64,000 nucleotides of DNA from Arcobacteraceae bacterium (GTDB taxonomy: Bacteria; Campylobacterota; Campylobacteria; Campylobacterales; Arcobacteraceae), in NCBI GenBank assembly GCA_028687375.1, contig JAQUAG010000007.1, positions 1 through 64,000 of the forward strand, written 5' to 3'. A program made the translations under genes and the position numbers. The first letter of the stretch is position 1; each line of letters opens with the position of its first letter. This document shows, one piece after another, positions 3,077 through 21,583 of the stretch. Below the pieces are notes generated by a model that was not told the DNA's origin, ran no database searches, and worked only from the letters and a program-made list of their open reading frames with translations.

Positions 3077-3228
3077 ATGAGAATTAATACAAATGCTGCA
3101 TCATTAAATGCACAAGAATCTGCAACAAATACAAATAATAACTTAAGAAGTTCATTAGAAAAATTAAGTTCAGGTCTTAGAATTAATAAAGCTTCGGATG
3201 ATGCTTCTGGATTGGCGATTGCTGATAA
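2941..3228 (+). repeat. 5' direct repeat block shared with 3994-4281
   Basis: These 288 bases, covering the whole leader and the first 152 bases of the flagellin gene, are identical to 3994-4281 at a constant offset of 1053. The first mismatch is at 3229 (G versus A at 4282), and upstream of 2941 the two copies are unrelated. Confidence 0.95.
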
Positions 3229-3940
3229 GTTAAGAACACAGGCATCTTCAATAGGTCAATCAATATCAAATGGGAATAGTGCGACTGCTTTAACACAAAT
3301 TGCTGATAAAGCGATGGCTGAGCAATCAAATATTCTTGATATTGTAAAACAAAAATTAATCCAAGCTGCAACTGCTACTACTTCTCAAGAGGGTAGAACA
3401 GCGATTGCGAAAGATATTAGTAAACTGTTAACACAATTAGATAATATCGCAAGTCAAACGAACTATAATGGTATCTCATTATTACAAGCTAGTGCTGCTG
3501 GTAAAGGAACATCTTCTAAACTTGATTTCCAAATGGGTGAATCATCTGGAAACTTAATATCATTAGGTTCAGGAATTCAAGCTAATACTTCTGGATTAGA
3601 TGGGATGTTTACATTAGTTAGTAAAACAAGTGCAGCAGCAGCGAGTGGATTTGCAGCTGAGTCAGCAAGAGCTATTATGAAAAATGTTGATAGTGCATTA
3701 AATCAACTTAATGGTTGGAGATCAGATGTTGGTTCTACACAAAATCAACTTGAATCAGCTTTAAGAAATATGATGACTCAACAAACAAATATCAAAGCAG
3801 CAGAATCTGTAATTAGAGATGTTGATTATGCTTCTGAGAGTGCGAACTTTAATAAACAAAATATTATTGCGCAAGCTGGGACTTATGCTATGAGTCAAGC
3901 GAATGCAGTACAACAAAACGTTCTAAAACTACTTCAGTAG
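3077..3940 (+). CDS. flaA: Flagellin, tandem copy 1
   Basis: This 287-residue protein is a short flagellin made almost only of the D0/D1 polymerisation domains. The N-terminus MRINTNAASLNAQ, the SSGLRINKASDDASGLAIA segment and the C-terminal ESVIRDVDYASE ... ILAQAG-like (here IIAQAGTYAM) and NVLKLLQ stretches are diagnostic. The central part (about residues 150-195) is short, rich in Ser/Thr/Ala/Gly and the only region that clearly differs from copy 2. It is the likely surface-exposed, glycosylated segment. It is secreted by the flagellar type III system and needs FliS, encoded at 30936. A perfect 7-bp hairpin (3949-3965) follows the stop but lacks a T-run, so some transcripts may reach copy 2. 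The symbol follows the usual flaA/flaB naming. Confidence 0.95.
   Translation: MRINTNAASLNAQESATNTNNNLRSSLEKLSSGLRINKASDDASGLAIADKLRTQASSIGQSISNGNSATALTQIADKAMAEQSNILDIVKQKLIQAATATTSQEGRTAIAKDISKLLTQLDNIASQTNYNGISLLQASAAGKGTSSKLDFQMGESSGNLISLGSGIQANTSGLDGMFTLVSKTSAAAASGFAAESARAIMKNVDSALNQLNGWRSDVGSTQNQLESALRNMMTQQTNIKAAESVIRDVDYASESANFNKQNIIAQAGTYAMSQANAVQQNVLKLLQ
3676..3928 (+). repeat. 3' direct repeat block shared with 4723-4975
   Basis: These 253 bases, encoding the flagellin C-terminal D1/D0 helices, are identical to 4723-4975 (offset 1047). Identity stops within the last few codons, where synonymous differences appear. Together with the 5' block this brackets a diverged middle, the pattern left by gene conversion between tandem copies. 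Confidence 0.93.
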
Positions 3941-3993
3941 TCGATAAAGCAATATAAAATATTGCAAAGAATGTTTGTTAAAAATAATTTTAG

Positions 3994-4129
3994 TATAACT
4001 GTATAGGTATCAATTGATACCGAAGGGTGAGAGACCCTATGCTTAAAGGGTGTTAATCTGATAAGAATGTAAATTGGTGCAAAGTGGAATTCTTTGCAAA
4101 AGTGTCATAAATATTTAAAAGGATAAATT
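3994..4129 (+). promoter_or_regulatory. Structured flagellin 5' leader, copy 2
   Basis: Base-for-base identical to the leader at 2941-3076, with the same palindrome, competing AGGGT/ACCCT pairings, GGA-loop hairpin and GGA ribosome-binding site. The sequence before it (3941-3993) differs from copy 1 and shows no clean TATAAT, so the two genes share post-transcriptional control but may differ in promoter strength. Confidence 0.6.
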
Positions 4130-4987
4130 ATGAGAATTAATACAAATGCTGCATCATTAAATGCACAAGAATCTGCAACAAATACAAATAATAACTTAAG
4201 AAGTTCATTAGAAAAATTAAGTTCAGGTCTTAGAATTAATAAAGCTTCGGATGATGCTTCTGGATTGGCGATTGCTGATAAATTAAGAACACAGGCGTCT
4301 TCAATTGGTCAAGCGATATCAAATGGGAATAGTGCGACTGCTTTAACACAAATTGCTGATAAAGCGATGGCTGAGCAATCAAATATTCTTGATATTGTAA
4401 AACAAAAATTAATCCAAGCTGCAACTGCTACTACTTCAGAAGAGGGTAGAACAGCTATTGGAAAAGATATTAATAAATTGTTAACACAATTAGATAATAT
4501 TGCAACACAAACAAACTATAATGGTATTTCATTATTGCAAGCAAGTGCTGCTAGTACTGATTCATCTATAAAACTAGATTTTCAAATGGGAGAGTCATCT
4601 GGAAATCTTATATCATTAGGTTCAGGTATTACAGCTAATACTCATGGATTAGATGGTATGTCTGCATTAAAAGCTTCTGCACTTGGTGGTGCTAGTTTTT
4701 CAGCTGGCGTAGCAAGAGGATATATGAAAAATGTTGATAGTGCATTAAATCAACTTAATGGTTGGAGATCAGATGTTGGTTCTACACAAAATCAACTTGA
4801 ATCAGCTTTAAGAAATATGATGACTCAACAAACAAATATCAAAGCAGCAGAATCTGTAATTAGAGATGTTGATTATGCTTCTGAGAGTGCGAACTTTAAT
4901 AAACAAAATATTATTGCGCAAGCTGGGACTTATGCTATGAGTCAAGCGAATGCAGTACAACAAAACGTTCTAAAATTATTACAATAA
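4130..4987 (+). CDS. flaB: Flagellin, tandem copy 2
   Basis: This 285-residue flagellin has N- and C-terminal polymerisation domains nearly identical to copy 1. The middle third (about residues 150-195) differs by substitutions and a net two-residue deletion and again carries many Ser/Thr, the usual attachment sites for pseudaminic-type sugars. Start, ribosome-binding site and leader match copy 1. There is no strong terminator directly after the stop, only a 6-bp hairpin at 4991-5009. The next gene encodes the Maf glycosyltransferase that would act on this protein. Which copy is the major filament subunit cannot be read from the sequence. Confidence 0.95.
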   Translation: MRINTNAASLNAQESATNTNNNLRSSLEKLSSGLRINKASDDASGLAIADKLRTQASSIGQAISNGNSATALTQIADKAMAEQSNILDIVKQKLIQAATATTSEEGRTAIGKDINKLLTQLDNIATQTNYNGISLLQASAASTDSSIKLDFQMGESSGNLISLGSGITANTHGLDGMSALKASALGGASFSAGVARGYMKNVDSALNQLNGWRSDVGSTQNQLESALRNMMTQQTNIKAAESVIRDVDYASESANFNKQNIIAQAGTYAMSQANAVQQNVLKLLQ

Positions 4988-5165: not shown

Positions 5166-7130
5166 ATGGAAGAAGAGTTAATCGATTTAAGCAGTACATT
5201 GTTTGAAATTTACAGAAGAAATTTAGTATTTCTAGAAGAGTATTTTCCAAAAGTTTTTGATAAGGTAGATATTTTATCAAAAGAATTAGATGAAGAGAAA
5301 TATTTTCCTAAGTATACATTAGAGTATGTAGATAATTATTTTGATATTTTAAATGTTGAGACAAATTCTTGGTATTATGGTGAAAACACTTATGCAGATG
5401 GTGATTTTAGAGCAAAACATTCTAATTTTACAAAAGATGGTTCTTTGGATCTTTTACGAAAAGGTCTTGGTGGAAAGAAACTTGCAAAAAGTGAATCATT
5501 CAAAGATGTATTACCGATTATTGATTATATGAATGACATAATAGACTTTGATACTATAGAATTTCAAAAAGTGTATAAATTTATTTTTATTGGGACTGGA
5601 CTTGGTATCCATCTTCATGAAATCAATAAAAAGCTAGACCCTTTTACAACATTAATCATAGAACCAGAATTAGAAGTTTTTAGATTGTCATTATTTGTGA
5701 CAGATTATAGCGAGTTCCAAAAAAACAATAAAAAATTATTTTTGTATGTTGGAGATGATAAGTTTGAAAGGATAAATGCCATTCAGCAGTTCTATAATTA
5801 TCATAATTATATGAATTATAATATTAAGCATCATCTATTAATTCAAAATAATGAAACGATATTAGCTGAGATCAAAGATTTCTTTTCAACAAATACAACA
5901 ACATCCTTTCCTTATTCACTCACTTTAAAAAATATACATAGAACTATCAAATATATGAGAGATGAAGAGAGGTTCTTTGATACAACGCTTATTATGGAGC
6001 AAAAAGTTTTAAAAGATAAACCAACTTTGATAGTTGCAGCTGGACCTTCTTTAGATAACTATATTGATTGGATATGTGAACATCAAAATAAATTTATTAT
6101 TGTGTGTGTTGATGTAATTTTGCGAAAACTTGAAGAGCATCAAATTATTCCAGACATTGTAGTATCAATTGACCCGTCTCATTTATGTGGGAAATATTTA
6201 ACGACTGAAAATAAAGATTTTTTAAAAGATAGTGCTATTGTTTTTTTGTCACAGCAAGAGGAGAGTGTTGTTGAGATAGTAAAAGATACAAAAAAATATT
6301 TTTCTCAAAGTATCCCGCTACTTGTAGATATTGGATATATGGGAAGTGTATCTAATGTTGGAACTTTTGCCCTTTTAGTATCTATACATTTTGGAGCGAA
6401 TAAAGTCTATACGATAGGAAATGATGCAGCATTTAATCAAGAAACAGGGAATAGATATTCCAAAGGGAGTTCTAATAACTTAGTTGATGAATTAGACTCT
6501 AGTGCTAAGAGTGATAATATTATTTCTAATTATGATGTTATGGAAGTTGAAGGAAATCTAAGAGAGAAAGTAAGAACAAATAGAATATTGATGACTTTTA
6601 AAGAAGCTTTTGAATCTACAATGTATAGTTTGAAAGTTTTTTATAAAGATTTAGAAGTATATAATCTATCTGATGGTGTAAAATTAAATGGTTTTGAACC
6701 TATGTCATTTGAAATAATTAATAGTCTTGTTGAAGAGATGGAAGAGAAAGAAAAGAATATTCAAGAGTTAATGGATCAAATTTCTATTGTAGTGGAGATG
6801 CCTGATTATACAAAAGATATTAAGATATTAAATTCAATTGTCAATAAAGCTAAAAAATACAAAAAAAATCAACTTACGTCAAGAAATGGTTTTTTAGAAG
6901 AAAAATTGAGTTTGATGGTTTGGATTTTGGAGCAATCGAAAAAGACAAATGGTGCTATTATTGGTAATATGTTTTTACATTATACAGAACTTGTAGACAT
7001 CTATGTGAACTTTTTATTAAATTTAAGACAACAAAATCTCTATGACAAAAAACATCTAATTAAAATAAATCAGTTGTGGTTAGATGGTGTTATCAATGTT
7101 ATTACGGATATTAGAAAAGCAATTTCATAA
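5166..7130 (+). CDS. Motility accessory factor, Maf-family flagellin glycosyltransferase
   Basis: This 654-residue cytoplasmic protein carries the MAF_flag10 (DUF115) domain in its middle, about residues 250-440. That domain begins with the signature PTLIVAAGPSLDN (AAGPS near residue 291) and continues through CVDVILRKLEEHQIIPDIVVSIDP. Maf proteins resemble sialyltransferases and transfer CMP-pseudaminic or legionaminic acid to Ser/Thr of flagellin before export. The position directly behind two flagellins and opposite a pse operon supports this. The ribosome-binding site lies in AAGGATTCCTT (5155-5165), self-complementary and touching the ATG, which may limit initiation. The gene overlaps the end of the convergent 7125-8066 gene by 6 bases. 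Only one maf copy is visible in this window. Confidence 0.9.
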   Translation: MEEELIDLSSTLFEIYRRNLVFLEEYFPKVFDKVDILSKELDEEKYFPKYTLEYVDNYFDILNVETNSWYYGENTYADGDFRAKHSNFTKDGSLDLLRKGLGGKKLAKSESFKDVLPIIDYMNDIIDFDTIEFQKVYKFIFIGTGLGIHLHEINKKLDPFTTLIIEPELEVFRLSLFVTDYSEFQKNNKKLFLYVGDDKFERINAIQQFYNYHNYMNYNIKHHLLIQNNETILAEIKDFFSTNTTTSFPYSLTLKNIHRTIKYMRDEERFFDTTLIMEQKVLKDKPTLIVAAGPSLDNYIDWICEHQNKFIIVCVDVILRKLEEHQIIPDIVVSIDPSHLCGKYLTTENKDFLKDSAIVFLSQQEESVVEIVKDTKKYFSQSIPLLVDIGYMGSVSNVGTFALLVSIHFGANKVYTIGNDAAFNQETGNRYSKGSSNNLVDELDSSAKSDNIISNYDVMEVEGNLREKVRTNRILMTFKEAFESTMYSLKVFYKDLEVYNLSDGVKLNGFEPMSFEIINSLVEEMEEKEKNIQELMDQISIVVEMPDYTKDIKILNSIVNKAKKYKKNQLTSRNGFLEEKLSLMVWILEQSKKTNGAIIGNMFLHYTELVDIYVNFLLNLRQQNLYDKKHLIKINQLWLDGVINVITDIRKAIS

Positions 7131-8066
7131 GAAATATTTTTTTAGTATCACACTTAGATGCTTTTGAGAGTATATTTTGTGATTATTTGGGATATTTTCC
7201 ACTACAATTGTTTTATTTGAATTGATTTGGATACTAAAAGTTGGTTTTTGAAAGAGTGAACACTCTTTAAACAATGATGAACTGATTCCAAAAACAACTT
7301 TTGAGTAAAAAATTAAATCTTGGCTATTACAATTGTCTTGAATAATCTGAAGATGACTATACTTTCTAAGGAGAATATTAAATTTATTTTTAGATTCGTA
7401 TGGGTGTAGTTTCAAAAATATTGGAATTTTTAAATCTAAAGCATCAATAGTTTCTAAAATATTTTCTACCATCTCATATTCTGTAAAACCAAATTGAAGT
7501 CTATAAAGCTCATAAATATACTCTGTTAAAATAAGAAGATATTCCCCTTTATGATCTTTTATAAAATTATGTGATTGTTTTGGTGGAAATTTTTGAAAAA
7601 AAACTTTGAGATATGATTTGTAAAAATTTTCTTTGATGATGCTTCTTGATTCTATTTGTGGGATATCTGATTTGAACGATTTAATGGTATCAATCCATAT
7701 CTCATCAGCAAGATACTCTAAATCGATCAATTTTCCATCTAAGATAAATCGTTTTTCGAAGTTAGCTATATTATCAATCAGTGTGATTGTCTTTTGTACC
7801 CCAGCGATTTTTGCATTTTTAATCATAGACATTTCGTAACTTGAATATAAACCAGAAGTACCACTAATTACCGTATCAGTTTGACAAAATTTAAGAGATG
7901 AGAACTCTTTGATATAGCTAGAATAATCTCTTTTGAAAATCTCTTTAGCTGGTCCATCACAATAGATATCTATAGCCTCATACAATTTACCATAAAAAAA
8001 GATATATGCTATAGTTATATTTGCACTATTAGCATCATGAGCAAAAACGACTAATCTATTAAGCAT
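7125..8066 (-). CDS. Uncharacterised protein, possible GT-B-fold glycosyltransferase
   Basis: This 313-residue soluble protein is the last gene of the glycan operon. No family is recognised with confidence. The C-terminal half has the order of elements seen in CDP-glycerol- or polysialyl-type GT-B enzymes: a LKLHPYESK motif (about residue 240) and then SKVVFGISSSLFKECSLF (about 270-290), where such enzymes bind the nucleotide sugar. The N-terminus (VVFAHDANSANI) could be the first strand of a Rossmann-like domain. It overlaps the convergent maf gene by 6 bases and follows the aminotransferase gene by 24. A role in transferring or modifying a flagellar sugar is inferred from fold hints and context only. 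Confidence 0.5.
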   Translation of the reverse strand: MLNRLVVFAHDANSANITIAYIFFYGKLYEAIDIYCDGPAKEIFKRDYSSYIKEFSSLKFCQTDTVISGTSGLYSSYEMSMIKNAKIAGVQKTITLIDNIANFEKRFILDGKLIDLEYLADEIWIDTIKSFKSDIPQIESRSIIKENFYKSYLKVFFQKFPPKQSHNFIKDHKGEYLLILTEYIYELYRLQFGFTEYEMVENILETIDALDLKIPIFLKLHPYESKNKFNILLRKYSHLQIIQDNCNSQDLIFYSKVVFGISSSLFKECSLFQKPTFSIQINSNKTIVVENIPNNHKIYSQKHLSVILKKYFL

Positions 8067-8090
8067 ATATTTTATAGTTATTATTAAGTG

Positions 8091-9374
8091 TTACTTGAGT
8101 TCATCTAAATTATCAGCAACTTTACAATATGCAGCGATAACATCTTTGACATCCGATACAGTTAATGGACTTCTTGTAAAATCATGACTGAATAATCTTT
8201 TATGATGCAACTCTTCATAATGAGGGCATAGTCCTTTATTGTAATTAATAGTTTCTTTAAAACCAAAGCCTTGCTCTTTGTATGCCCATTTTTTTTGAAA
8301 AATTGGGTGGTAATAAAGTGGTTTTACCCCTCCAAACCCAATAGGAACTCCCTCTTTTTCTCGTCCTTCAACTGGCATAAGTTCAGCTTTTACAGCTTCT
8401 ATAAATCTTTCTCTACTAATACCCGCTTTCTCTTCGTAAAATCTAAATAATTGTACATAGTAACTATGTGTTCTATCATCATAGGTTGTAGTTTCTATAA
8501 AATCATATTTTGTTAATGTATCGTTATACATTTTTGCATATTGTTGTCTAATTTCAAGTTCCATATCAAGTTTATCAAGTTGTTCAACTCCTATAGCTGC
8601 TTGAATCTCTGTAAGTCTAAAATTAAATCCAAGCATATTTATTAAGTCTGTTTCCCCTTTTGCATCCACCACTGATTCTGCATGATTTCTAATGAGTTGC
8701 ATCTTATTTGCTAGGGTATCATTATTTGTTGTACACATACCACCTTCACCTGTGTGGATATGTTTATGGTAATTTAAACTAAAAATACCAATATCACCTA
8801 AGGTTCCAACTGGTTTTCCTTTATAAGTAGCTCCTGGTGCTTGAGCACAATCTTCTATCACATAGAGATTGTGTTTTTTTGCAATAGCCATTATCTCATC
8901 CATATTTGAAGGACAACCAGAGATATGGACAACAATAATAACTTTTGTATCCTTTGTAATCACTCTTTCTAACATCTCTAAATCATACGAATATGTGTTC
9001 ATATCAAGATCACAAAAAACAGGAGTAGCATTATAAAAAAGTGGTGCAGTTGCTGAGATAGACATAGAAAAAGGTGTAACTATAACTTCATCTCCAAGAC
9101 CAATTCCACAAGCACCTAAAGCTGTTATTATCCCTGATGTATTTGAATTGACACTAATTGAATGTTTTGCATTAAATTTTTTTGACCATTTTTCTTCAAA
9201 TTCTAATATTTTCTTTCCACCATAAAAGTCATTACACCAAGCACCTATAAATTGGGATAAAACACCCTCTTGCATCACTTTTGTAACGGCATCTATCTCG
9301 ATTTGGTCAATATTGTTATATCTAGGAAATAGAGTATTCCTAACTTTTGCTCCACCATTAATAGCTAATTTCAT
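8091..9374 (-). CDS. DegT/DnrJ/EryC1/StrS-family sugar aminotransferase
   Basis: This 427-residue PLP enzyme of the sugar aminotransferase family probably forms an internal aldimine through Lys204 in NYHKHIHTGEGG. Asp175 of IEDCAQAPG should contact the pyridine nitrogen. It is longer than PseC/LegC-type enzymes (about 370-390) and its MKLAINGGAKVR start resembles the AHBA synthase/NtdA branch. It overlaps the upstream Gfo/Idh/MocA oxidoreductase gene by 4 bases. Such pairs commonly make 3-amino sugars by oxidation to a keto sugar followed by transamination (kanosamine NtdC/NtdA, WlbA/WlbC). The actual substrate is unknown. It is distinct from the PseC aminotransferase encoded at 19463. Confidence 0.85.
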   Translation of the reverse strand: MKLAINGGAKVRNTLFPRYNNIDQIEIDAVTKVMQEGVLSQFIGAWCNDFYGGKKILEFEEKWSKKFNAKHSISVNSNTSGIITALGACGIGLGDEVIVTPFSMSISATAPLFYNATPVFCDLDMNTYSYDLEMLERVITKDTKVIIVVHISGCPSNMDEIMAIAKKHNLYVIEDCAQAPGATYKGKPVGTLGDIGIFSLNYHKHIHTGEGGMCTTNNDTLANKMQLIRNHAESVVDAKGETDLINMLGFNFRLTEIQAAIGVEQLDKLDMELEIRQQYAKMYNDTLTKYDFIETTTYDDRTHSYYVQLFRFYEEKAGISRERFIEAVKAELMPVEGREKEGVPIGFGGVKPLYYHPIFQKKWAYKEQGFGFKETINYNKGLCPHYEELHHKRLFSHDFTRSPLTVSDVKDVIAAYCKVADNLDELK

Positions 9375-10348
9375 TTGTTTGCTTCCTTTATGATTGTATT
9401 GTAAAATTCTTGATTTTGGAGTTCATCATCAAATGATGAGATATTTTTTTCATTATCTATCAACATAGTATATATTTTTGCATAAGCATTACTGAGGAAG
9501 AGAGTTCCGTCAATAGTTTCTGTTTTACAAGTAGGATTAAAAATTTTATATGTTGGAAACTCTGGATGATCGATTTTTTCATAATATTGAATTTCACTCT
9601 TTGCATTGTTTAATTTTATTAGATAATCATTACTAAAAATTTCAACTTCAATAAAATTATATTTTGTATGATTGTGTGCGATAAAATAAGTAGGAATAGT
9701 ATTTCCCTTATAATTAAGCTTTGCAAAAATATCATAATTGATATCTGTTTCGTTTAATCCATTTGATTTAGATAATATTTGTGATTCTTCTATAGATGGA
9801 TTTTCAAAAAGATAATTTATCAAATCTATCATATGGGAACCATTATTTTTCAACCCTTTGCAGTAGTGGATGATTATTTTTTCTGGTTGTATCTCTTTTG
9901 AAGTTATAAATTTTTTCATATTAGAAATTGTTTTACTAAATCTTCTTGAGTAATTTATGATAATTTTTTCTTTTAGTGTAGTATCTATTGAAGTGTAATT
10001 TTGAACAAGTTCAAATAGAGGTTTTTCGATAAAAAAATATTTGATATTTTCATTTTTAGAAAAAGCATTTAAAATTGTGTAATGTGTTTTTGTTGGTGTT
10101 GCAATAACTAAAAGATCAATATCATTTTGATTTACAATCTCTTCATAGTTGGTATAGGTTAAACAATTTGGAAAAAAGTCATTTAAAATTTCAAAATTCT
10201 TTCTATCAATATCTACGGCATATTTTAAGTTAAAATTTTTATTTGCGTATATTGCTTTTGTATGGGATAAACATTTTGCTAAATTTGTTTTGTCTGTATC
10301 AAAGAGTAAGCCAATATTACCAAGACCAACTAAAGCGACATTAACCAT
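9371..10348 (-). CDS. Gfo/Idh/MocA-family sugar oxidoreductase (second copy)
   Basis: The 325-residue protein begins with a Rossmann NAD(P)-binding segment, VNVALVGLGNIG, and has the conserved EKP of the family (FFIEKPL, about residue 125) that carries the catalytic lysine. The rest forms the substrate-binding alpha/beta domain. Family members oxidise or reduce sugar hydroxyls. The gene is chained by 4- to 8-base overlaps to the aminotransferase gene (downstream) and the GNAT gene (upstream), so it likely supplies the keto sugar for transamination. It is only distantly similar to the other Gfo/Idh/MocA gene at 11599. Confidence 0.82.
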   Translation of the reverse strand: MVNVALVGLGNIGLLFDTDKTNLAKCLSHTKAIYANKNFNLKYAVDIDRKNFEILNDFFPNCLTYTNYEEIVNQNDIDLLVIATPTKTHYTILNAFSKNENIKYFFIEKPLFELVQNYTSIDTTLKEKIIINYSRRFSKTISNMKKFITSKEIQPEKIIIHYCKGLKNNGSHMIDLINYLFENPSIEESQILSKSNGLNETDINYDIFAKLNYKGNTIPTYFIAHNHTKYNFIEVEIFSNDYLIKLNNAKSEIQYYEKIDHPEFPTYKIFNPTCKTETIDGTLFLSNAYAKIYTMLIDNEKNISSFDDELQNQEFYNTIIKEANK

Positions 10349-10883
10349 CTATAAATTCTCTTTTTAAAATACCAAAAGGGACAATATCAACAAATCTTCC
10401 ATCTCGTTGGAAATATTCTCGTAACAATCCCTCTTGTGTGAAATTGAGTTTTTTAAACACTTTTTGCATTGGGATATTATCCGAAGTTGTCCCAGAGTTA
10501 ATTTTATTTAAATTTAGTTTATTGAAGCAGTGACTAAGAGTAGCTCTAAAAACTTCTACAGCATAGCCTTTCCCCCAAAACTCTTTTTCACCCAAAAGAA
10601 TAGAGATGTCAGCATGAGAGTTTATATAATCTATTTTTGAAATAGCGGTATTCCCTATATGTTGGTTTGTTTTTTTATCTATAATTGCTAAAACTATTTG
10701 CGTTCTATTTTGACAATTTTGAATATATCCTAAAGTTGCCTCTTTTGTATTTGGAAAAATACCATGAGAGTTGTATTGTGTAATCTCAGAATTATTGAGC
10801 CAAAAGATATAATTATCACTTAAATGTTGCTCCTCGAGTGGTTCTAAATAAAGATTATTTGTTTCTAAAAATATATTTCTCAT
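10341..10883 (-). CDS. GNAT-family N-acetyltransferase, candidate PseH
   Basis: This 180-residue acetyltransferase has the RimJ/RimL-like GNAT fold. LYLEPLEEQHL is at the N-terminus, LGEKEFWGKGYAVEVFRATL (acetyl-CoA pyrophosphate loop, about residues 95-115) is in the middle, and NIPMQKVFKKLNFTQEGLLRE is near the end. The operon contains the other five pseudaminic-acid enzymes but no other acetyltransferase, so this is the best candidate for PseH, which acetylates the 4-amino group made by PseC. Alternatively it acylates the product of the neighbouring aminotransferase. It overlaps both neighbours (4 and 8 bases). The family is firm and the substrate is not. Confidence 0.82.
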   Translation of the reverse strand: MRNIFLETNNLYLEPLEEQHLSDNYIFWLNNSEITQYNSHGIFPNTKEATLGYIQNCQNRTQIVLAIIDKKTNQHIGNTAISKIDYINSHADISILLGEKEFWGKGYAVEVFRATLSHCFNKLNLNKINSGTTSDNIPMQKVFKKLNFTQEGLLREYFQRDGRFVDIVPFGILKREFIDG

Positions 10884-11602
10884 GATAAACCTTTCCTTTT
10901 GATATGAGTGTTGTTTGCTATTATTTGTGGGTTTTGTTTTGCAAAAGCGACAATCTCTTCTACTGTAAAAGTATTGTTTTTGAAGTGTTGATAGACTGAT
11001 TTAATAACCTTATAATCCTCTTTTGTATCCAATGTTACAGATAACTCTGGCATCTTTTCATTTTCATTTGGTTGAAATTGAAAAGTTTTATAAAGACCAC
11101 TTGTATAGAGATAAGGTGTTACATGTTCTATATCGGCTTGTGTAAGTTCTCTCTCTTTTGAGATACTTTGAAGTGTATCAAGGGAAAATATCTCTGTTGC
11201 CATACCAAGAGGATAATCGCAACTTGTGTGAACATATTGATATGCATTATTTAAAAAAATATCTAATCCCTTATCTATAACTCTATAATCTATCAAAGGG
11301 CAATCGCCTGATAGTTCAACAATAATATCAGTTTCAAAGAATTGATGAGCTTCTAAAACTCTTTTATAGACATTTTCTTCACTCCCTCTAAAATATTTGA
11401 TATTAAGACTCTCACAAAGTTCTACAATGGGATCATCTGTTGTATTGGAAGTTGTCGCAACAAAGAGATTATCAATTTTATTAGATTGAATAACTCTTTC
11501 TATCATAAGTTGCAATGCTGGTTTTCCACCAATTTCTTGCAAAACTTTCCCTGGAAATCTAGTTGAGGTCATCCTAGCTTCAATTGAGGCATTAATTTTC
11601 AT
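10880..11602 (-). CDS. SpsF-like nucleotidyltransferase
   Basis: This 240-residue protein of the cytidylyltransferase / SpsF group has an N-terminal signature INASIEARMTSTRFPGKVL, which is the pyrophosphorylase loop with the SxRxxGK-type pattern. It also has VELSGDCPLID (about residue 95-105), whose aspartates should bind the metal and nucleotide. Family members activate sugars, often sialic- or KDO-like acids, as CMP derivatives, though some use other nucleotides. It is separate from PseF at 18769, so the operon encodes two sugar-activating enzymes, consistent with two different activated sugars. It overlaps both neighbours by 4 bases. Confidence 0.8.
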   Translation of the reverse strand: MKINASIEARMTSTRFPGKVLQEIGGKPALQLMIERVIQSNKIDNLFVATTSNTTDDPIVELCESLNIKYFRGSEENVYKRVLEAHQFFETDIIVELSGDCPLIDYRVIDKGLDIFLNNAYQYVHTSCDYPLGMATEIFSLDTLQSISKERELTQADIEHVTPYLYTSGLYKTFQFQPNENEKMPELSVTLDTKEDYKVIKSVYQHFKNNTFTVEEIVAFAKQNPQIIANNTHIKRKGLS

Positions 11603-12699
11603 TTATTTGTAATCCACTCTTTTTTTTCATTTGAAATACTAGCATTATGAAGGAGTTTTAAACCATTTTTAGCATGATTAAATCCGTAAACATAGTCGCT
11701 TGTATAAGGTTTGTTTTGTTTATAGTTATCTAATCCATTTGCAATATCATTGTAAAGATTAGCAAATGCTTCTATAAATCCAGATGGATGTCCTGGTGTC
11801 ATTCTGTTATAAAGTTTATTAGAAATATCAAGTTCTCCACCTCTATCTAAAATAATCATTTTTCCATCACGATAAGATAGTTGTAATTTTTCAGGATTTT
11901 CCTGATGCCACACAGCACTTCCTTTATCTCCATAAATTTCAATATGAAGCCCATTTCTATTCCCTAAAGCAGTTTTGCTTAACCAAAAATTTCCTTTTAC
12001 TCCATCACTATATTCTAAAAGGATATTTACATCATCTATAACATCATAATTTGAATATTTATCATATGCTGCAAAAACTTTTGATGGTTCTTTTCCTAAT
12101 AAAAAGTAAGAGAGATGGTGTAAATGTACACCTAAATCTAAACTAATCATAGGGATAAAATCATCTTTTAATCGCCAAGGTTGAGGGTATTTGATACTTT
12201 TAGGAGGTCTTAAAAAACTCTCTTGAGGCATTTTTAATCTAATATGTAAAATTTTCCCAAGGTTGTTTTGTGCAATCTCTTCTTTGAGTTGTCTTACCAT
12301 TGGATAGCCACTATAGTTATTGGTTACAACTAAAAAATGGTTATTTTCATCATAAAATTTCTCTATTTTTTCAATCTCATCTATGGAGCTTACTAAAGGT
12401 TTTTCACAAATTACATTTATATTTTGTTCCAATAAATATTGAATCATTTCAAAGTGAACAGGAGTTGGAGCAAGTATCACAACTGCATCAAGATTTGATT
12501 TTTCATTTTCAATGAGTTCTTTGTAATTTTTATAAATATTTTTAATATTTAATCTTTTTGATGTATCGATATTTGTTTGTTCATTGCTACTAAATGTAGC
12601 TGCAATAACTTCAAATCTTCTATCCATTTGTGATGCTATAAAATGGGGATAACCTGCAATTGACCCATCCCCACCACCTATAAATGCTAATTTATACAT
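11599..12699 (-). CDS. Gfo/Idh/MocA-family sugar oxidoreductase (first copy)
   Basis: This 366-residue NAD(P)-dependent oxidoreductase has an N-terminal YKLAFIGGGDGSIAGYPH dinucleotide loop, NVICEKPLVSS (the family EKP motif, about residue 95-105), and DLGVHLHHLSYFLLG (about 190-205), the conserved metal/substrate helix of the C-terminal domain. Longer and more typical than the second copy. The substrate is unknown, and the place in the operon points to a nucleotide- or phosphosugar. It lies 13 bases after the radical SAM gene and overlaps the next gene by 4. Confidence 0.85.
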   Translation of the reverse strand: MYKLAFIGGGDGSIAGYPHFIASQMDRRFEVIAATFSSNEQTNIDTSKRLNIKNIYKNYKELIENEKSNLDAVVILAPTPVHFEMIQYLLEQNINVICEKPLVSSIDEIEKIEKFYDENNHFLVVTNNYSGYPMVRQLKEEIAQNNLGKILHIRLKMPQESFLRPPKSIKYPQPWRLKDDFIPMISLDLGVHLHHLSYFLLGKEPSKVFAAYDKYSNYDVIDDVNILLEYSDGVKGNFWLSKTALGNRNGLHIEIYGDKGSAVWHQENPEKLQLSYRDGKMIILDRGGELDISNKLYNRMTPGHPSGFIEAFANLYNDIANGLDNYKQNKPYTSDYVYGFNHAKNGLKLLHNASISNEKKEWITNK

Positions 12700-12712
12700 C
12701 TAAACACCTTTA

Positions 12713-14464
12713 TTAAAATCTAAAACCAGCATCAACTGATGGAGGATGAGGTTTTACAGTTTTTAGATATTCTTCATCTAGATAGTTATTCAAATGAGGC
12801 ATCTCACTACCATATCTATCCCATAAATTTCGTGCAATTTGACTACTTTTTATTTGTGCTACTGCTTCTTGTAAATCGGCTTGTGCTTCTTCATTTTTAT
12901 TGAGTTGTAGATACGCCATTGCTCTTTGGTAAAGTGCTGGTATATGAAATTTATATTTCCATAGTACCATATCTGTAAAATATTTAGCTGCTCTTTCATA
13001 TCTACCATTTAACATATTTCTATTACCAAAAAAGTTAGTATAGATATTTACATCATAGACTAATTCAGTTAATTCTTTAGCTGTAATCTCTTTTGTATCA
13101 AACTCTCTACTCCCATATCCACAATGATCCCAGTCAATATCATTTGGATCAATTTTTCCCATAGCAACAAACTCATCATAAGCTTCAGTTCCTGGAAGTG
13201 GTAAAAGGGCAAAGACTTGAATCCAATCAACATCAATAGTTTCTTGCATATATTGTTTTGTTTCATTTGGAAAGCCAAAAAGTATATTTGTTTCAACTTT
13301 TACACCAAGAGTTCTAGCATGTGCTATTAAATCTCTCGCTTTTGTAAGATTTACTCGTTTCTTTACAATATGTTCTTGTGCATACTGTGAACCTGATTCA
13401 ATCATAATTCTAATATAATCAAATCCTAAAGAGCAAACATATTCAAGTAGATTTTCATCCATTACTCTCACACTTAATCCACTTGGCATCGAAAAAACTA
13501 AACCTTTGTTAACCCCTTCATTATTGATTCTTTGAGCTAATTCCATAAATTTGTTTTTTCTTGCAGCAAGTAAATCATCCCAAAGTACGATATTTACAAA
13601 TCCACATTCATCTCTTAAATAGAGTAAATCATCAATGATTCTTTGATTTGATTTCGTTCTGATTTTACTACCATGAATTATCATAGAAGCACAATAAGTA
13701 CAGCTAAAAGGGCAACCTCTATCCATCATCATCCCAATAGAACCAGTTGTAAATGAATTTGAATGAGTTCTATAGGCTTCAATATCAAGTAGATCAAATG
13801 CAGGTAAACCAATCTCATCAAGGTCTACGAGTGTTTCACCAAATACCCCTTTTGTAATACCTCTTGATGCTTCTAATTTTACTTTTTCTTCATCGTACAC
13901 ACCAAGAATAGTACTGATATCTATATTTGGTTTATTACCTAATTTTACATCGTATACTTCTTGAATAAATTTAGCTAAACTAATTTCAGCTTCCCCAACA
14001 AATACATAATCTACAAACTTTGAATCTTTAAAAACTGTGTCATGATAAAATGTTACATGTCCACCACCAAAAATAAGTGTACAGTCTGGCCATTTATCTT
14101 TAATCAGTTGTGCCATTTTTAAAGAGGACATATAAGCAGAAGAGAAGAGGATTGAAATCCCAACTATATCTGGTGGATTTTTTATTTCGTTGAGGATATT
14201 TATTGCATACTGTTCAAAAGTAATTGGTGCTTCATTTTCTATGTTAAGATAATAAAAGTGCAACTTTTGAGCAATATCTAATAGAGTAAAATTGAGATAA
14301 TCATACTTATTTCTTGTATAAGAAGCTAACTCTATCAATCCAGTTGGAGTTTCAAATGTTGGTCGTAAATTTTTATTAAATTGAGATAATAATTGCTCTT
14401 GTTGGTAGAGTGGCATTGTGCTAGGACTTATAAAAAGTACATCTAGATTTTTGTTATTTTTCAT
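12713..14464 (-). CDS. B12-binding-type radical SAM enzyme
   Basis: This 583-residue protein has three parts. Residues 1-200 resemble the cobalamin-binding Rossmann domain (PDIVGISILFSSAY, LIFGGGHVTF, YVFVGEAE), but the DxHxxG loop that gives base-off binding is not obvious. Residues 240-480 are the radical SAM core with the 4Fe-4S motif C251-xxx-C255-xx-C258 (RGCPFSCTYCAS). The C-terminus (about 500-560) is helical and TPR-like. Family members do methylations, rearrangements and epimerisations on unactivated carbons. Such an enzyme is not part of the textbook pseudaminic or legionaminic routes, so its presence mid-operon suggests an unusual sugar modification. The reaction cannot be deduced from sequence. 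Confidence 0.85.
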   Translation of the reverse strand: MKNNKNLDVLFISPSTMPLYQQEQLLSQFNKNLRPTFETPTGLIELASYTRNKYDYLNFTLLDIAQKLHFYYLNIENEAPITFEQYAINILNEIKNPPDIVGISILFSSAYMSSLKMAQLIKDKWPDCTLIFGGGHVTFYHDTVFKDSKFVDYVFVGEAEISLAKFIQEVYDVKLGNKPNIDISTILGVYDEEKVKLEASRGITKGVFGETLVDLDEIGLPAFDLLDIEAYRTHSNSFTTGSIGMMMDRGCPFSCTYCASMIIHGSKIRTKSNQRIIDDLLYLRDECGFVNIVLWDDLLAARKNKFMELAQRINNEGVNKGLVFSMPSGLSVRVMDENLLEYVCSLGFDYIRIMIESGSQYAQEHIVKKRVNLTKARDLIAHARTLGVKVETNILFGFPNETKQYMQETIDVDWIQVFALLPLPGTEAYDEFVAMGKIDPNDIDWDHCGYGSREFDTKEITAKELTELVYDVNIYTNFFGNRNMLNGRYERAAKYFTDMVLWKYKFHIPALYQRAMAYLQLNKNEEAQADLQEAVAQIKSSQIARNLWDRYGSEMPHLNNYLDEEYLKTVKPHPPSVDAGFRF

Positions 14465-14511
14465 TATTTTCCTTTGTCTCTTTTATTGTAACTAAATAAG
14501 ATAAAACACCA

Positions 14512-15678
14512 TTATTTTTTTAAAGTAACTTGTATTAATTTATTTATATTCTTTATAATATTTTCAATCTCATCACTTTTGTCTAGCTTAATGAATATGA
14601 TAGCAAGTTGAGTATTTAAATAATTTGTTATGTGATATTCTGGTTCAATTAAACTAAAGTTTAAAAGAATCTTTTCTTCTAAACTACTATCTATCTTTAT
14701 ACTCTCATAGATTCCATTTTGAGTTGGCATAACACAGTGTCGTATTATAAAATTTTGTTTTTCATTTTTATACTTAAATTCATCATCAATTTGTCCAGTT
14801 GTATAAGCTTTTACTACAGCTTTTGAATATTCTACCCCATCACTATATTCTATCAAATAAGGATATAAATCACCTGGTATTCTTCTTGTGACATCTATGA
14901 TGTAAGGGATATTATTTTTTATGAGAACTTGAAGATGAAACATACCATCAACAAGTTTTAGTAGTTGTGCTAATTTTTCAATATCATTTTGAAGTTTTGT
15001 TAATGTCTCTTTCTCTATGGTAGTAGGATATGCTGAGGTTATGAGGTAAGGATTGAGATATGTTGCATCATCACCTAAAAAACCATATACTATTTTTTGC
15101 TCTTTTAAAAATATTGAATAAGCGATAAGTTTCCCATCTATAAACTCTTCAAGGAATATTTCATTTGATATATCAGAGGTATGTTGAAGAGCCTTATGTA
15201 ATTGATTTTCATTATACACAACCTCTACGCCTCGTCCACCTGATAAATTTGTAGGTTTCACAACTATTGGAAACTCTAGGTTTATTTTATCATTTGAATT
15301 TTCATTATAGAAAAATCCTTTTGGGGTAGATATCCCATTTTCTAAACAAAACTTTTTAAATTTCCATTTATTATGAACTAATTGCGCTGTTTCAAGAGTA
15401 TCAAAATTTCCAATATGAAGCTCGTGTGCTAACAAAACCGTATTAAGATAAGATTCTTCGCCACTTCCTGGGATAATATAATCAACTTCTTCCTCTTTGA
15501 TAAGCTCTTTTACTTTGTCTAAATCATTAAAATTGATTTTACAAGCTTTATTTGAATAGTTGTGCCCAAGATAATAATCTCTATCTCCCAATGTGATAAC
15601 ATAATATCCTAACTCTTGCGATGCTTTAATAAGGGGAATATCTCTATGACTTCCACCTAAAATAACTATTTTTTTCAT
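14512..15678 (-). CDS. ATP-grasp-domain ligase
   Basis: This 388-residue protein has an N-terminal pre-ATP-grasp Rossmann-like domain (KKIVILGGSHRDIPLI, residues 1-100) and then an ATP-grasp fold. INLEFPIVVKPTNLSGGRGVEVV supplies the ATP-binding lysine and glycine loop, EEFIDG the adenine hinge, and YIIDVTRRIPGDLYP the metal-binding Asp/Arg region (about residue 270-280). Related enzymes form amide bonds between a carboxylate and an amine. In a glycan operon, attachment of an amino acid or other acyl group to an amino sugar is plausible. Its start overlaps the end of pseG by 4 bases and 47 bases separate it from the radical SAM gene. Confidence 0.8.
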   Translation of the reverse strand: MKKIVILGGSHRDIPLIKASQELGYYVITLGDRDYYLGHNYSNKACKINFNDLDKVKELIKEEEVDYIIPGSGEESYLNTVLLAHELHIGNFDTLETAQLVHNKWKFKKFCLENGISTPKGFFYNENSNDKINLEFPIVVKPTNLSGGRGVEVVYNENQLHKALQHTSDISNEIFLEEFIDGKLIAYSIFLKEQKIVYGFLGDDATYLNPYLITSAYPTTIEKETLTKLQNDIEKLAQLLKLVDGMFHLQVLIKNNIPYIIDVTRRIPGDLYPYLIEYSDGVEYSKAVVKAYTTGQIDDEFKYKNEKQNFIIRHCVMPTQNGIYESIKIDSSLEEKILLNFSLIEPEYHITNYLNTQLAIIFIKLDKSDEIENIIKNINKLIQVTLKK

Positions 15679-16610
15679 TGTATTAGCCTTGAAATAGAGT
15701 CAAAAATTCTTTGTGTTCCTAAACCATCAATTTGGTTATTTACCTTGAAAGTATTTTGAGTTTGAACACATTTCATCACCTCTTGATGTAATTTATTTTT
15801 CCAATTTGTATCGTCAATAGAGATGTTGCTTTTTGCAATATTATGTTTGATTGATTGTTTAGCACCATTGGCTTGATTTTGATTTACTGATATTGTAATT
15901 GTTGGAATTTGTAGATAGGCTAACTCATAAAGGGTCATACTAGCTGTTGAGATAGCTATAGAACTCTTGGCCATATTTTCTACTAATTCATTGTCTTTTG
16001 GTTTGTAGAGTACTTTTAGATTTTCAAATTTTTCTAGTTCTTCTTTTGTTTTTGCACTATTTGTTACTATTGTTTTTGAGATATTTATATCTTGTATAAG
16101 CTCAATAATATCGAATGACAAACCTTCTGTATCAGTTCCTCCAAGGATTATAAAGATATTCTCTTTTTTCTCTTTAAAAGATACAATAAACTCTTTTCTA
16201 ATGGGTATATAATCTAAACCTAACAGATAACTATTCTCTTTTTGTTTAGATTGAAAAAACTCTTCATTTGCATCTGGTGCAAAGTTGATAATGACACCTC
16301 TTGGATAGTTAAGTCTGTTTTCATCATCTAAAAAAACAGTAACTTTTGAGTTGTTGGAAGCTTCTTGATAGATATCTAAAGTAGCTTCATAACTATCAAT
16401 AAAAATAACATCATACTTTTTTTGTAGCTGAAAATTATCCCAAGTAAATGATTTTAGGTCATTAAATTTATATGAAAAATCAATATCACTATCAAGAAAG
16501 AGATCTACTTCACAAAAGTTATCTTTAAATTTTTGAGCTATGGTATAACATCTTATGAGATGTCCCATCCCCCTTTTTAAACCAGCTTCTGTGAAAAATG
16601 CAACTTTCAT
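15675..16610 (-). CDS. pseG: PseG-type UDP-sugar hydrolase
   Basis: This 311-residue GT-B-like protein begins KVAFFTEAGLKRGMGHLIRC. His17 in this GxGH motif corresponds to the catalytic His17 of C. jejuni PseG. Later features are a FLDD strand (about residue 95), IFIILGGTD (about 175-185), where the UDP moiety binds, and ASMTLYELAYL (about 245). PseG removes UDP from UDP-2,4-diacetamido-2,4,6-trideoxy-L-altropyranose to give the free sugar used by PseI. The gene starts directly after pseI with no gap. A closely related SpsG-type role is the main alternative, but the operon partners favour PseG. Confidence 0.82.
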   Translation of the reverse strand: MKVAFFTEAGLKRGMGHLIRCYTIAQKFKDNFCEVDLFLDSDIDFSYKFNDLKSFTWDNFQLQKKYDVIFIDSYEATLDIYQEASNNSKVTVFLDDENRLNYPRGVIINFAPDANEEFFQSKQKENSYLLGLDYIPIRKEFIVSFKEKKENIFIILGGTDTEGLSFDIIELIQDINISKTIVTNSAKTKEELEKFENLKVLYKPKDNELVENMAKSSIAISTASMTLYELAYLQIPTITISVNQNQANGAKQSIKHNIAKSNISIDDTNWKNKLHQEVMKCVQTQNTFKVNNQIDGLGTQRIFDSISRLIQ

Positions 16611-17654
16611 TTATGAGAGTTCTCCTACCATTTCCCATTTAAGAAGGGTTCCTCTTTTAAGTGAATGGGAGGCTTTTCTTTCTAAAACACTATTGATATC
16701 TTTAGATGCAATCCCTCCACCTGGTCTTAAACTTTTGATATTTGAAGATGAAAATATCTCCCCTTTTTGAATATCTTTTATAACGATTAATGATCTTTGG
16801 TCTTTGTTTGGAGTTATTGGATAATTAACTTTTCCAATAGCTTTATAAACCATTTTAGCTCCATCAACTATCGCTTTGAGTTCATCTGGAGTTGCTGAGA
16901 AAAAACTATCAGCTGTTGTGTCCGTCCTATTTACAATAAAATGTTTCTCAATGATACTTGCACCAAGAGCAATAGCACCAATAGGTACAGCACTTCCTAA
17001 AGTATGGTCAGATAATCCAACTGGACATTTAAAAGCTCTTTTAAGATGTTTCATGGTTTTTAAATTTATATTTTCAACAGGTGCTGGATATTCACTTGTA
17101 CATTTTAAAATTGCTAAATCTTTTACATTTTCTTCAATCATAACTGCAATCGCATCGTTAATTTGCCCTAAAGTTGCATTACCAGTTGAAAGGATAATCG
17201 GTTTTTTCGTTTGAGCAATTCTTCGTATGAGTGGTAAATCTACAATTTCTGGTGAAGCAATTTTATAAGCTGGCATATCTAAAGTTTCTAAAAATTCTAC
17301 AGAACTAAAATCAAAAGGGCTAGAAAAAAGTGTGATTCCAACTTCATTAGCAACTTCAATGAGTTTTGGTGTCCATTCCCAAGGCATTGAAGCATCAAGG
17401 TATAAGTCATAAAGATATTGCCCACTCCAAGCACCTTTTGCTTCAAAAGGAGCTTCTTTACAATCTAAAGTCAATGTATCTGCTGTATATGTTTGAATTT
17501 TAATAGCATCTGCACCAGCTTTTTTAGCTTCTTTTATAATCTCTATTGCTTTATTAATATCATTTCCATGATTTGCAGACATCTCAGCTATGATATAAGG
17601 TTCGCAGTTTTGTCCTATTTCTCTACCATTAATTTTAAAACTTTTATTAAACAT
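16611..17654 (-). CDS. pseI: Pseudaminic acid synthase
   Basis: The 347-residue enzyme has a NeuB-type TIM barrel (about residues 1-275) followed by a C-terminal SAF/antifreeze-like domain (about 285-345, RSLIVIKDIQKGEIF). Signature segments are YIIAEMSANHGND, GADAIKIQTYTADTLTL and LKCTSEYP, with GLSDHTLG for metal and PEP binding. The YDLYLDASMPWEW segment follows the PseI pattern YELYESAKTPYEW rather than that of sialic acid synthase. It condenses phosphoenolpyruvate with the PseG product to form pseudaminic acid. LegI/NeuB are the alternatives, made less likely by the accompanying pseB, pseC and pseF. Confidence 0.87.
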   Translation of the reverse strand: MFNKSFKINGREIGQNCEPYIIAEMSANHGNDINKAIEIIKEAKKAGADAIKIQTYTADTLTLDCKEAPFEAKGAWSGQYLYDLYLDASMPWEWTPKLIEVANEVGITLFSSPFDFSSVEFLETLDMPAYKIASPEIVDLPLIRRIAQTKKPIILSTGNATLGQINDAIAVMIEENVKDLAILKCTSEYPAPVENINLKTMKHLKRAFKCPVGLSDHTLGSAVPIGAIALGASIIEKHFIVNRTDTTADSFFSATPDELKAIVDGAKMVYKAIGKVNYPITPNKDQRSLIVIKDIQKGEIFSSSNIKSLRPGGGIASKDINSVLERKASHSLKRGTLLKWEMVGELS

Positions 17655-18713
17655 TTAGATTCTCTCGTAAATTCTAAGTTGTGAATGAAATCCATCTTCA
17701 GTAACAAAACCAAACACTTCACTATCCCTTGCTATTAGTTTATAATTTGGTAGGAAATTATTATAATCATCCCCTAAAATTGGCTCTTTAACCCCAGCTT
17801 TAAAGTGATCACTTTGTTTTCTTTTCCCCTCAAGCATATTTCTAAGTAGTATGTATTGTGGTTCAAGTTTATCTATATAATTGCAATAATTTTTAACAAC
17901 TTCTGGTTCCATCTCTTGAAATGAAATAAAATTTACAAATAAATCTATTTTCCCTTGTAATTTTGGAACTTGCCACGAAGTGATATTTAACCCTTTATAC
18001 TTCTCTTTTAAAGTTTCAATATCTAAAATATCCAAATCTTTTAAATCATTATAATCAGCTATATTCTCTTTTCCAAAAACCTCTTGTAGATAATAAGATG
18101 AAACAAATCCAACAGGTGGAATATCTGCATTTATATAAAAAGCTTCATTTCTTTCATCTCCTAAGAAAATCTCACCAAGTGTTCCAAATCCACCACCTAT
18201 CTCCATCACTGTTTTAACATTCTTTGTATCAACATTTTGCTTTAAAAAATTAAGTCCTAAAAGATAATTTAAAAATGATCTAGAAAAATTTCTTCCATTA
18301 AATTCATTTTGTTCAATTGGATTTCCAACTTTACTTTCACTTACTCTATTTGTATATGGTATTTTATCAATATTACTAGCTTGTAAAATTCTGTAATCAT
18401 TAAAAGCACTTGTATATCCTGTAAATAATCTTTGCACTCTTGTAGTAAATCGTTTATCAGCTACTAACTTATCTAGTTCATCTATAAAAAAATCATATTT
18501 TGTAGGATTTTCAAAATATTCAACAGCACTATACCCTGGAACAAAAAAGTTTCTAGTTGTCGTTAATGCTCTAAAATCTTTTATATCGTATTGTTCTAGT
18601 TCATCAATAAGTAGTTTTGAGCCATATTCCCAAAATGCAGTTGGTCTATAAAGTTGATTTTGCTTTGCCATATCTTGCAACATTGTATTTAGAAGTGGAT
18701 ATTTTGTATTCAT
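17655..18713 (-). CDS. Putative sugar O-methyltransferase
   Basis: This 352-residue soluble protein has a class I SAM-dependent methyltransferase core. VKTVMEIGGGFGTLGEIFLGD (about residue 165-185) is the glycine-rich SAM-binding motif I, and INADIPP provides the acidic residue at the end of strand 2. The long N-terminal helical part with SKVGNPIEQ resembles the putative sugar O-methyltransferase family found in surface-polysaccharide and sialic/nonulosonic-acid gene sets. It abuts pseI with no gap and lies 55 bases after pseF, so it is embedded in the CMP-pseudaminic-acid genes. Methylated flagellar nonulosonates are known in Campylobacter. That this gene makes one is inference. Confidence 0.7.
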   Translation of the reverse strand: MNTKYPLLNTMLQDMAKQNQLYRPTAFWEYGSKLLIDELEQYDIKDFRALTTTRNFFVPGYSAVEYFENPTKYDFFIDELDKLVADKRFTTRVQRLFTGYTSAFNDYRILQASNIDKIPYTNRVSESKVGNPIEQNEFNGRNFSRSFLNYLLGLNFLKQNVDTKNVKTVMEIGGGFGTLGEIFLGDERNEAFYINADIPPVGFVSSYYLQEVFGKENIADYNDLKDLDILDIETLKEKYKGLNITSWQVPKLQGKIDLFVNFISFQEMEPEVVKNYCNYIDKLEPQYILLRNMLEGKRKQSDHFKAGVKEPILGDDYNNFLPNYKLIARDSEVFGFVTEDGFHSQLRIYERI

Positions 18714-18768: not shown

Positions 18769-19470
18769 TTATTTAGTGTTTGTTTTTGCTATAGCTTCAT
18801 ACAGATATTCAGCTCTTTCCCAATCTTCTAGGGTGTCAATATCTTGTACTAAATACCTTGGAAGAACAATAGGAACACTATCTTTTCCAAAAGGAATATC
18901 TGTAAATTCTTTATTTAAGTTTTCAAAATAAAATTGTCCAGCATCTTGATAAGCCTCTTCTAAATCTTGACTTCTTGTCATAAAATGTTCAGGTGTAAAC
19001 ATTTTACATCTTCCATTTTCATCTATCTTAAAAGTTCTTTGAATTGGAAATGGCATAGATGTTACACTAAAAACCATTTTTGCATCGGTGGTTTTTATTT
19101 TTTCATACCCTTCAATGAGATACTTCTCTTGTAAAAGTGGAGCCGTTGCATAGATAGTGCAAGCATAGTCGTAGTGCTCACCATTTTCTTTTAAAAAATT
19201 GAGAGTATGTTTAATAACATCACCTGTTCCTGTAAAATCATCAGCTAGTTCTTTTGGTCGAATAAAAGGGACATTTGCCCCAAATTTTTTAGCTGTATGG
19301 GCTATCTCTTCATCATCAGTACTTACAATAACTTTCTCAAAAAGTCCACTTTTGAGAGCAGCTTCTATACTATATGCAATAAGAGGCTTACCGTGAAACT
19401 CTTTAATATTTTTTCGTGGAATTCTTTTACTCCCACCACGCGCAGGGATGATTGCTACACATTTAGGCAT
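18769..19470 (-). CDS. pseF: Pseudaminic acid cytidylyltransferase
   Basis: The 233-residue CMP-sugar synthetase begins with CVAIIPARGGSKRIPRKNI, the CTP-binding loop of NeuA/PseF enzymes. GKPLIAYSIEAAL and VIVSTDDEEIA follow, then YATAPLL, equivalent to the substrate-contact segment (QxTSPL in NeuA). PseF activates pseudaminic acid with CTP, giving CMP-Pse, the donor for Maf. The 8-base overlap with pseC and closeness to pseB favour pseudaminic over legionaminic acid. Length is as expected for PseF. Confidence 0.88.
   Translation of the reverse strand: MPKCVAIIPARGGSKRIPRKNIKEFHGKPLIAYSIEAALKSGLFEKVIVSTDDEEIAHTAKKFGANVPFIRPKELADDFTGTGDVIKHTLNFLKENGEHYDYACTIYATAPLLQEKYLIEGYEKIKTTDAKMVFSVTSMPFPIQRTFKIDENGRCKMFTPEHFMTRSQDLEEAYQDAGQFYFENLNKEFTDIPFGKDSVPIVLPRYLVQDIDTLEDWERAEYLYEAIAKTNTK

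Positions 19471-20590: not shown

Positions 20591-21583
<993 letters not shown>

Follow-up and report, generated by a model that had tools for sequence, protein, structure and literature searches.

What is made by the eight genes that lie between the pseudaminic acid (Pse) biosynthesis genes and the flagellin glycosyltransferase gene of an Arcobacteraceae bacterium? These genes occupy positions 7125-15678, on the minus strand, of the 64,000-nucleotide stretch analysed here (the window; contig JAQUAG010000007.1), which belongs to a 2.54-Mb genome of 51 contigs. An earlier sequence-only reading had placed them in one unassigned amino-sugar pathway inside the pse operon. All eight open reading frames (ORFs) were found, and their families were as described (by Pfam; the 313-aa protein has no Pfam family but shows a GT-B fold in its predicted model). 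They run on from the pse genes, as claimed: PseB, PseC, PseI and PseF scored 557.5, 446.2, 429.6 and 339.6 bits, all above the NCBIfam equivalog cut-offs, and PseG fell below its own. A single eight-gene pathway was nevertheless rejected on the evidence of other genomes, where the genes fall into separate groups: the ATP-grasp gene tracks the pse core, the gene for Gfo/Idh/MocA oxidoreductase A (GfoA) tracks ATP-grasp, FkbM and radical S-adenosylmethionine (SAM) genes, and the SpsF/GNAT/GfoB/DegT/GT-B set occurs without ATP-grasp. Judged by sequence and neighbourhood, the eight genes are (i) an ATP-grasp gene of the pse core, (ii) a tailoring pair of GfoA and a radical SAM enzyme (rSAM), and (iii) a second cassette formed by the remaining five. 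We consider it fairly probable that this is a flagellin-glycan operon which makes an N-acyl-modified Pse by means of an ATP-grasp ligase in the PseH slot and carries a separate amino-sugar cassette; the flagella probably bear an acyl-decorated sugar of undescribed synthesis.

The evidence that carries this explanation lies directly after pseG. In 14 of 14 operons examined this place is held by one kind of acylating enzyme, and two kinds together were found in none. The gene encodes a PseH above the curated cut-off in seven operons (L048-L054, whose genomes score 132-160 bits on the PseH model), a formyltransferase in L023, L046 and, by position, L047, and an ATP-grasp protein in four (that of the window, L065, L033 and L104). 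The window protein matched the ATP-grasp domain PF13535 with 38.4 bits (cut-off 27), its relatives directly after pseG are 69% (G021, L104), 63% (G405, L065) and 57% (G205, L033) identical to it, and eight aligned homologues have invariant residues in common. A genome-wide search of G000, G021, G405 and G205 revealed no PseH above the cut-off of 93.1 bits; the best match in the window genome, the GNAT protein of the second cassette, reached 38.6-39.8 bits, and G405 and G205 gave no match even at an E-value of 1. By position and conservation, the ATP-grasp gene is part of the pse core, and its product, predicted to join a carboxylate to an amine through an amide bond, seems to replace the acetyl-adding enzyme PseH. 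The operon resembles the Pse5Ac7Ac pathway of Campylobacter and Helicobacter (PseB-C-H-G-I-F) in its remaining equivalogs and in the adjacent maf and flagellin genes, but differs from it in the replacement of PseH, in a PseG below the cut-off and in a PseI that falls into a separate clade.

PseI and PseG have diverged together with the change of acylating enzyme. The PseI proteins are 65-84% identical within the ATP-grasp class and 43-47% identical to those of the PseH and formyl operons; for PseG the respective values are 48-58% and 18-24%. The window PseI shares 70-77% identity with those of the other ATP-grasp operons and, among 249 sampled phylum genomes, 72% with that of G205 and at most 51% with any other. 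PseI and PseG of the ATP-grasp class are each monophyletic (support 1.0), with 19 and 17 class-fixed differences, respectively, and PseB and PseF from the same operons show no class separation. PseG lies below the cut-off of 153.55 bits in both the window (101.5) and L065 (102.4). PseG keeps the histidine that aligns with His17 of the C. jejuni enzyme (3hbm), and the N-terminal loop preceding it changes from RxDxS...IGxGH to FxTEAG.KRGMGH in the ATP-grasp class. The pathway order of N-acylation, UDP hydrolysis and condensation is established (PMC13317340), and a class split of PseI and PseG is expected if the N-acyl group on their substrate differs. The N-formyl variants (L023, L046) likewise have a different enzyme type in the N-acylation slot; unlike the ATP-grasp class, however, they share PseI (59-77%) and PseG with the PseH class. 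The pattern appears compatible with a ligase acting before PseG, or with PseG and PseI taking the free amine. The earlier proposal of a tailored nonulosonate with an amide-linked group therefore gained support, from the ATP-grasp protein in the PseH position and the co-diverged PseI and PseG. A second PseG-like protein (24%) is encoded directly before pseB in G021 (L104, 17072-18055).

Several points weigh against the proposed explanation. A route in which PseG and PseI take the free amine and acylation follows late, on CMP-Pse, would leave an identical pattern. The ATP-grasp class consists of four operons seen, two of which (L033 and L065) reach contig ends, and the formyltransferase of L047 was assigned from size and position only. 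In L104 the ATP-grasp gene has no GfoA, FkbM or radical SAM gene beside it in the operon, which means that the coupling of tailoring pair and ligase is not universal. Finally, GNAT could still act as PseH in the window genome, where it is the top match to the PseH model (38.6 bits). The backbone would then be ordinary Pse5Ac7Ac, and the ATP-grasp enzyme, whose family also occurs in loci without visible pse genes, would add an acyl or amino-acid group elsewhere (e.g. O- or N-linked on the second-cassette sugar). We regard this as unlikely. GNAT orthologues lie beside a true PseH in five loci (L048, L050, L051, L052 and L054), so that GNAT is probably not PseH but a member of the second cassette; G405 and G205 combine the lack of a PseH match with the lack of a GNAT gene in view in the operon; and the PseI/PseG class split would be left unexplained.

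In the explanation that we prefer, the steps that we infer, including ligation site, acid identity, radical chemistry and second-cassette product, would run as follows. PseB and PseC would yield UDP-4-amino-4,6-dideoxy-L-AltNAc. The ATP-grasp enzyme would attach a carboxylic acid, in place of acetyl, at the 4-amino group, which ends up at C7 of the nonulosonate, and PseG and PseI, specialised for the altered substrate, would process the acylated sugar, which PseF would activate for Maf. GfoA and rSAM would prepare or tailor the acid, by oxidation and then most likely C-methylation, as against the O-methylation by FkbM in sister operons. The SpsF/GNAT/GfoB/DegT/GT-B proteins would separately build and attach an N-acetylated amino-sugar residue or further modify the glycan.

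Published chemistry offers partial precedents. The flagellin of Shewanella oneidensis carries a 274-Da nonulosonate with one N-acetyl group and two nitrogens, bearing a nitrogen-free methylated group of 236-264 Da, and the ATP-grasp_4 protein SfmE is required for its full modification (PMC3765264). The sfmABCDE system resembles that of the window as a nonulosonate pathway with an ATP-grasp protein, a likeness that rests on the shared domain. It differs in that S. oneidensis has no clear PseG, PseH, PseI or PseF orthologues, and in that sfm includes a thiamine pyrophosphate enzyme and a SAM methyltransferase but no radical SAM or Gfo/Idh gene (PMC3765264). The Pse5Am7Gra of Tannerella forsythia bears an N-glyceroyl group, for which its authors could reliably identify no modifying enzyme (PMC6388019). 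For the flagellin glycan of Treponema denticola, PMC9481697 cites a mass of 450.2 Da, which is 176 above 274. In a literature search that left most subscription journals outside its scope, PMC3765264 was the only paper found to name both nonulosonic acid and ATP-grasp, no study of Arcobacter flagellin glycosylation with Pse was found, and none of the papers returned named BFO_1060.

Of the tailoring pair, GfoA has relatives (43-61%) in 13 other genomes of a 298-genome sample; that of L065 shares 65%. In L024-L033 and L065, GfoA and a member of the same ATP-grasp family share a stretch of at most 20 kb. FkbM methyltransferases occur in L023, L024, L025, L026, L029, L031, L032, L033 and L065, while L022, L028, L029, L031 and L032 have radical SAM genes of other kinds (fusions with SPASM or GT2) near GfoA. 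The exact slot between ATP-grasp and GfoA is held by FkbM in L065 and L033 and by rSAM in the window; by position, rSAM would put another modification in place of an O-methylation. The GfoA/ATP-grasp pair is not flagellum-specific, because many of its loci lack pse, maf and flagellin genes within view. The sequence-only reading had called for a neighbourhood survey of linkage to maf and flagellin, and the linkage was supported: GfoB, DegT and GT-B recur in nine pse-maf loci. The GfoA cassettes also occur in loci with neither maf nor flagellin in view.

Two arrangements are noted in this context. Cassettes that combine GfoA, FkbM, radical SAM (SPASM) and ATP-grasp recur in L029, L031 and L032 with neither maf nor flagellin in view; they may be a general module for the acyl-sugar tailoring of surface glycans. 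In L023 (6828-13104) a pse operon contains formyltransferase, AMP-binding ligase, FkbM, GfoA, aminoglycoside N-acetyltransferase-like and DUF4910 genes; the place of ATP-grasp seems to be taken there by an AMP-forming ligase.

The rSAM protein (583 aa) has a B12-binding domain (PF02310, 41 bits; cut-off 32.1), from which cobalamin binding is predicted, and the motif CxxxCxxC (CPFSCTYC, residues 251-258). Its AlphaFold2 (AF2) model, built on four sequences, has a mean confidence (pLDDT) of 43. It shares the B12-binding and radical SAM architecture with known families (Sden_1168 P-methyltransferase, ApyD, HpnR and AprD4), but lies far under every equivalog cut-off (best NCBIfam score 124 bits for Sden_1168, cut-off 575; 67.4 for AprD4 NF033070, cut-off 500) and has a TPR-like tail. 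C-methylation is the commonest B12-radical chemistry. Deoxygenation is also possible, because the best sequence match in the PDB is AprD4 (6fd2), a sugar diol-dehydratase. We put forward only tentatively, as a doubtful extension, that rSAM acts on a carbon of the Gfo-made acid, by C-methylation or deoxygenation, and that ATP-grasp ligates this acid to the nucleotide sugar, yielding a PseH-independent, radical-tailored acyl-Pse on flagellin. If true, this would be the first cobalamin-radical chemistry in nonulosonate biosynthesis within the literature searched. The radical SAM step is the least supported part of the proposal, and the PseH-less operon class is narrower and better supported than the eight-gene claim.

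Alternatively, the locus could be a horizontally acquired mosaic in which rSAM, and perhaps GfoA, is a passenger with no role in the flagellar glycan. No rSAM relative was found outside its own genome, either in the phylum (397 genomes, 1e-40) or in the family (104 genomes, 1e-60). Scans of genome and viral contigs gave only relatives of ~22-24% (a weak negative for the genome contigs, whose scan used exact peptide patterns from one sequence), plasmids gave matches of at most ~27% (with a matching neighbourhood in neither of the two inspected), and phages a single match, in a Streptomyces phage. The rSAM gene overlaps neither neighbour but is set off by short gaps, and the congener G049 has a different maf-linked cluster at the same place. 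Against a passenger stand the intact ORF with its CxxxCxxC motif, the near-average G+C content of the gene (0.311) and the recurrence of other-type radical SAM genes beside GfoA in the five loci named above, and we judge this explanation very unlikely.

The second cassette was followed through DegT, which at 1e-90 was detected in 10 of 298 phylum genomes, i.e. nine besides that of the window. All nine other loci (L046-L054) lie inside a pse operon beside maf and include both GfoB and a 313-aa protein homologue; seven of them also have GNAT and two (L046 and L047) SpsF, and none has ATP-grasp or GfoA. The AF2 model of the 313-aa protein (pLDDT 81.6) matched UDP-GlcNAc 2-epimerases (Z up to 17.6) and the polysialyltransferase 5wc6 (Z 15.4), so its predicted GT-B fold would be compatible with a transferase, hydrolase or epimerase. 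Pairs of Gfo/Idh and DegT enzymes are known from 3-amino-sugar pathways, and the GfoB, DegT and GNAT set resembles WlbA/WlbC, GnnA/GnnB and NtdC/NtdA. However, the window DegT scores better on perosamine synthase and scyllo-inosose aminotransferases (1e-45 to 1e-53 against solved structures) than on WbpE (3nu7, 8e-32) or NtdA. The most likely role of the cassette is the synthesis and attachment of an N-acetylated amino sugar, or else amination of the glycan.

The 3-amino-sugar precedent, together with the cytidylyltransferase SpsF and the four overlapping internal junctions, would also suit a single pathway of all eight genes to a kanosamine- or GlcNAc3N-like amino sugar, activated by CMP or UDP and unrelated to Pse, which the sequence-only reading had offered as well. 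This is highly improbable, given that ATP-grasp occurs with the pse core alone (L104), ATP-grasp, FkbM and GfoA occur together (L065 and L033), and GfoB, DegT and GT-B lie in pse-maf loci without ATP-grasp or GfoA (L046-L054).

The pse operons of L048, L050 and L051 also contain a 378-aa gene, PseA-like by size and position. In L050 it is followed by HisH- and HisF-like genes, with genes of the same sizes in L048 and L051, an arrangement next to maf that is reminiscent of an amidination set.

Nonulosonates with bulky N-acyl groups are known as chemical structures (Pse5Am7Gra of T. forsythia and the 236-264-Da group of Shewanella), and the PseH-less ATP-grasp class offers a testable route to them. 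It points to three proteins as a set (ATP-grasp, PseG and PseI), and suggests a modular acylation slot, which accommodates acetyl, formyl or a ligated acid.

The features of the locus are listed in the table. On the minus strand, from 21583 to 7125, the order is pseB, pseC, pseF, the NanM-type O-methyltransferase gene, pseI, pseG, ATP-grasp, rSAM, GfoA, SpsF, GNAT, GfoB, DegT and the 313-aa gene, which converges on maf; maf and two flagellin genes are on the plus strand. The chaining by overlaps of 4-8 bases described earlier was confirmed at four of the seven internal junctions (GfoA/SpsF, SpsF/GNAT and GfoB/DegT, 4 bases each; GNAT/GfoB, 8) and at pseG/ATP-grasp (4); gaps separate ATP-grasp/rSAM (47 bases), rSAM/GfoA (13) and DegT/GT-B (24).

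Table. Features of the pse-maf locus, with positions in the window
Feature	Position	Strand	Basis
Two flagellin genes	3077..4987	+	ORFs; flagellin relatives 71-76% in L046, L047
Maf-type flagellin glycosyltransferase, convergent neighbour	5166..7130	+	Reading of sequence; relatives (24-55% identity) adjoin flagellin in related loci
GT-B-fold protein, 313 aa, conserved second-cassette member	7125..8066	-	Homologues in 9/9 other loci; predicted fold
DegT aminotransferase (second cassette)	8091..9374	-	PF01041; catalytic Lys kept in HKHIHTGEGG
Gfo/Idh/MocA oxidoreductase B (GfoB; second cassette)	9371..10348	-	PF01408; found in 9/9 other DegT loci
GNAT acetyltransferase (second cassette)	10341..10883	-	Pfam GNAT; PseH model below cut-off
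SpsF-like cytidylyltransferase (second cassette)	10880..11602	-	PF02348 (CTP_transf_3); 50% in L046 and L047
Gfo/Idh/MocA oxidoreductase A (GfoA; tailoring cassette)	11599..12699	-	PF01408/PF22725; 65% in L065, 45% in L033
B12-binding radical SAM enzyme (rSAM), C-terminal TPR-like region	12713..14464	-	PF02310, PF04055, weak TPR
ATP-grasp carboxylate-amine ligase (putative N-acyl ligase), PseH position	14512..15678	-	PF13535
PseG-like UDP-sugar hydrolase, divergent class	15675..16610	-	TIGR03590 101.5 bits, cut-off 153.55
PseI pseudaminic acid synthase, divergent class	16611..17654	-	TIGR03586 429.6 bits
NanM-type putative sugar O-methyltransferase	17655..18713	-	TIGR04371 252.9 bits
PseF CMP-pseudaminic acid synthetase	18769..19470	-	TIGR03584 above cut-off
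PseC aminotransferase	19463..20590	-	TIGR03588 above cut-off
PseB 4,6-dehydratase	20591..21583	-	TIGR03589 above cut-off

The NanM-type O-methyltransferase gene within the window pse operon, which the sequence-only account of the eight genes did not bring up, has no counterpart in the corresponding stretch of L065, L033 or L104. In G049, which belongs to the same genus (L100, 5699-18111), behind flagellin (87%) and maf (55%) lies an entirely different cluster where the pse operon would be, with genes for a SIS isomerase, a glycosyltransferase-like protein, NAD epimerase/dehydratases, three radical SAM proteins (two with SPASM), a split transketolase and a methyltransferase. The maf-linked glycan island thus appears to have been swapped wholesale within one genus.

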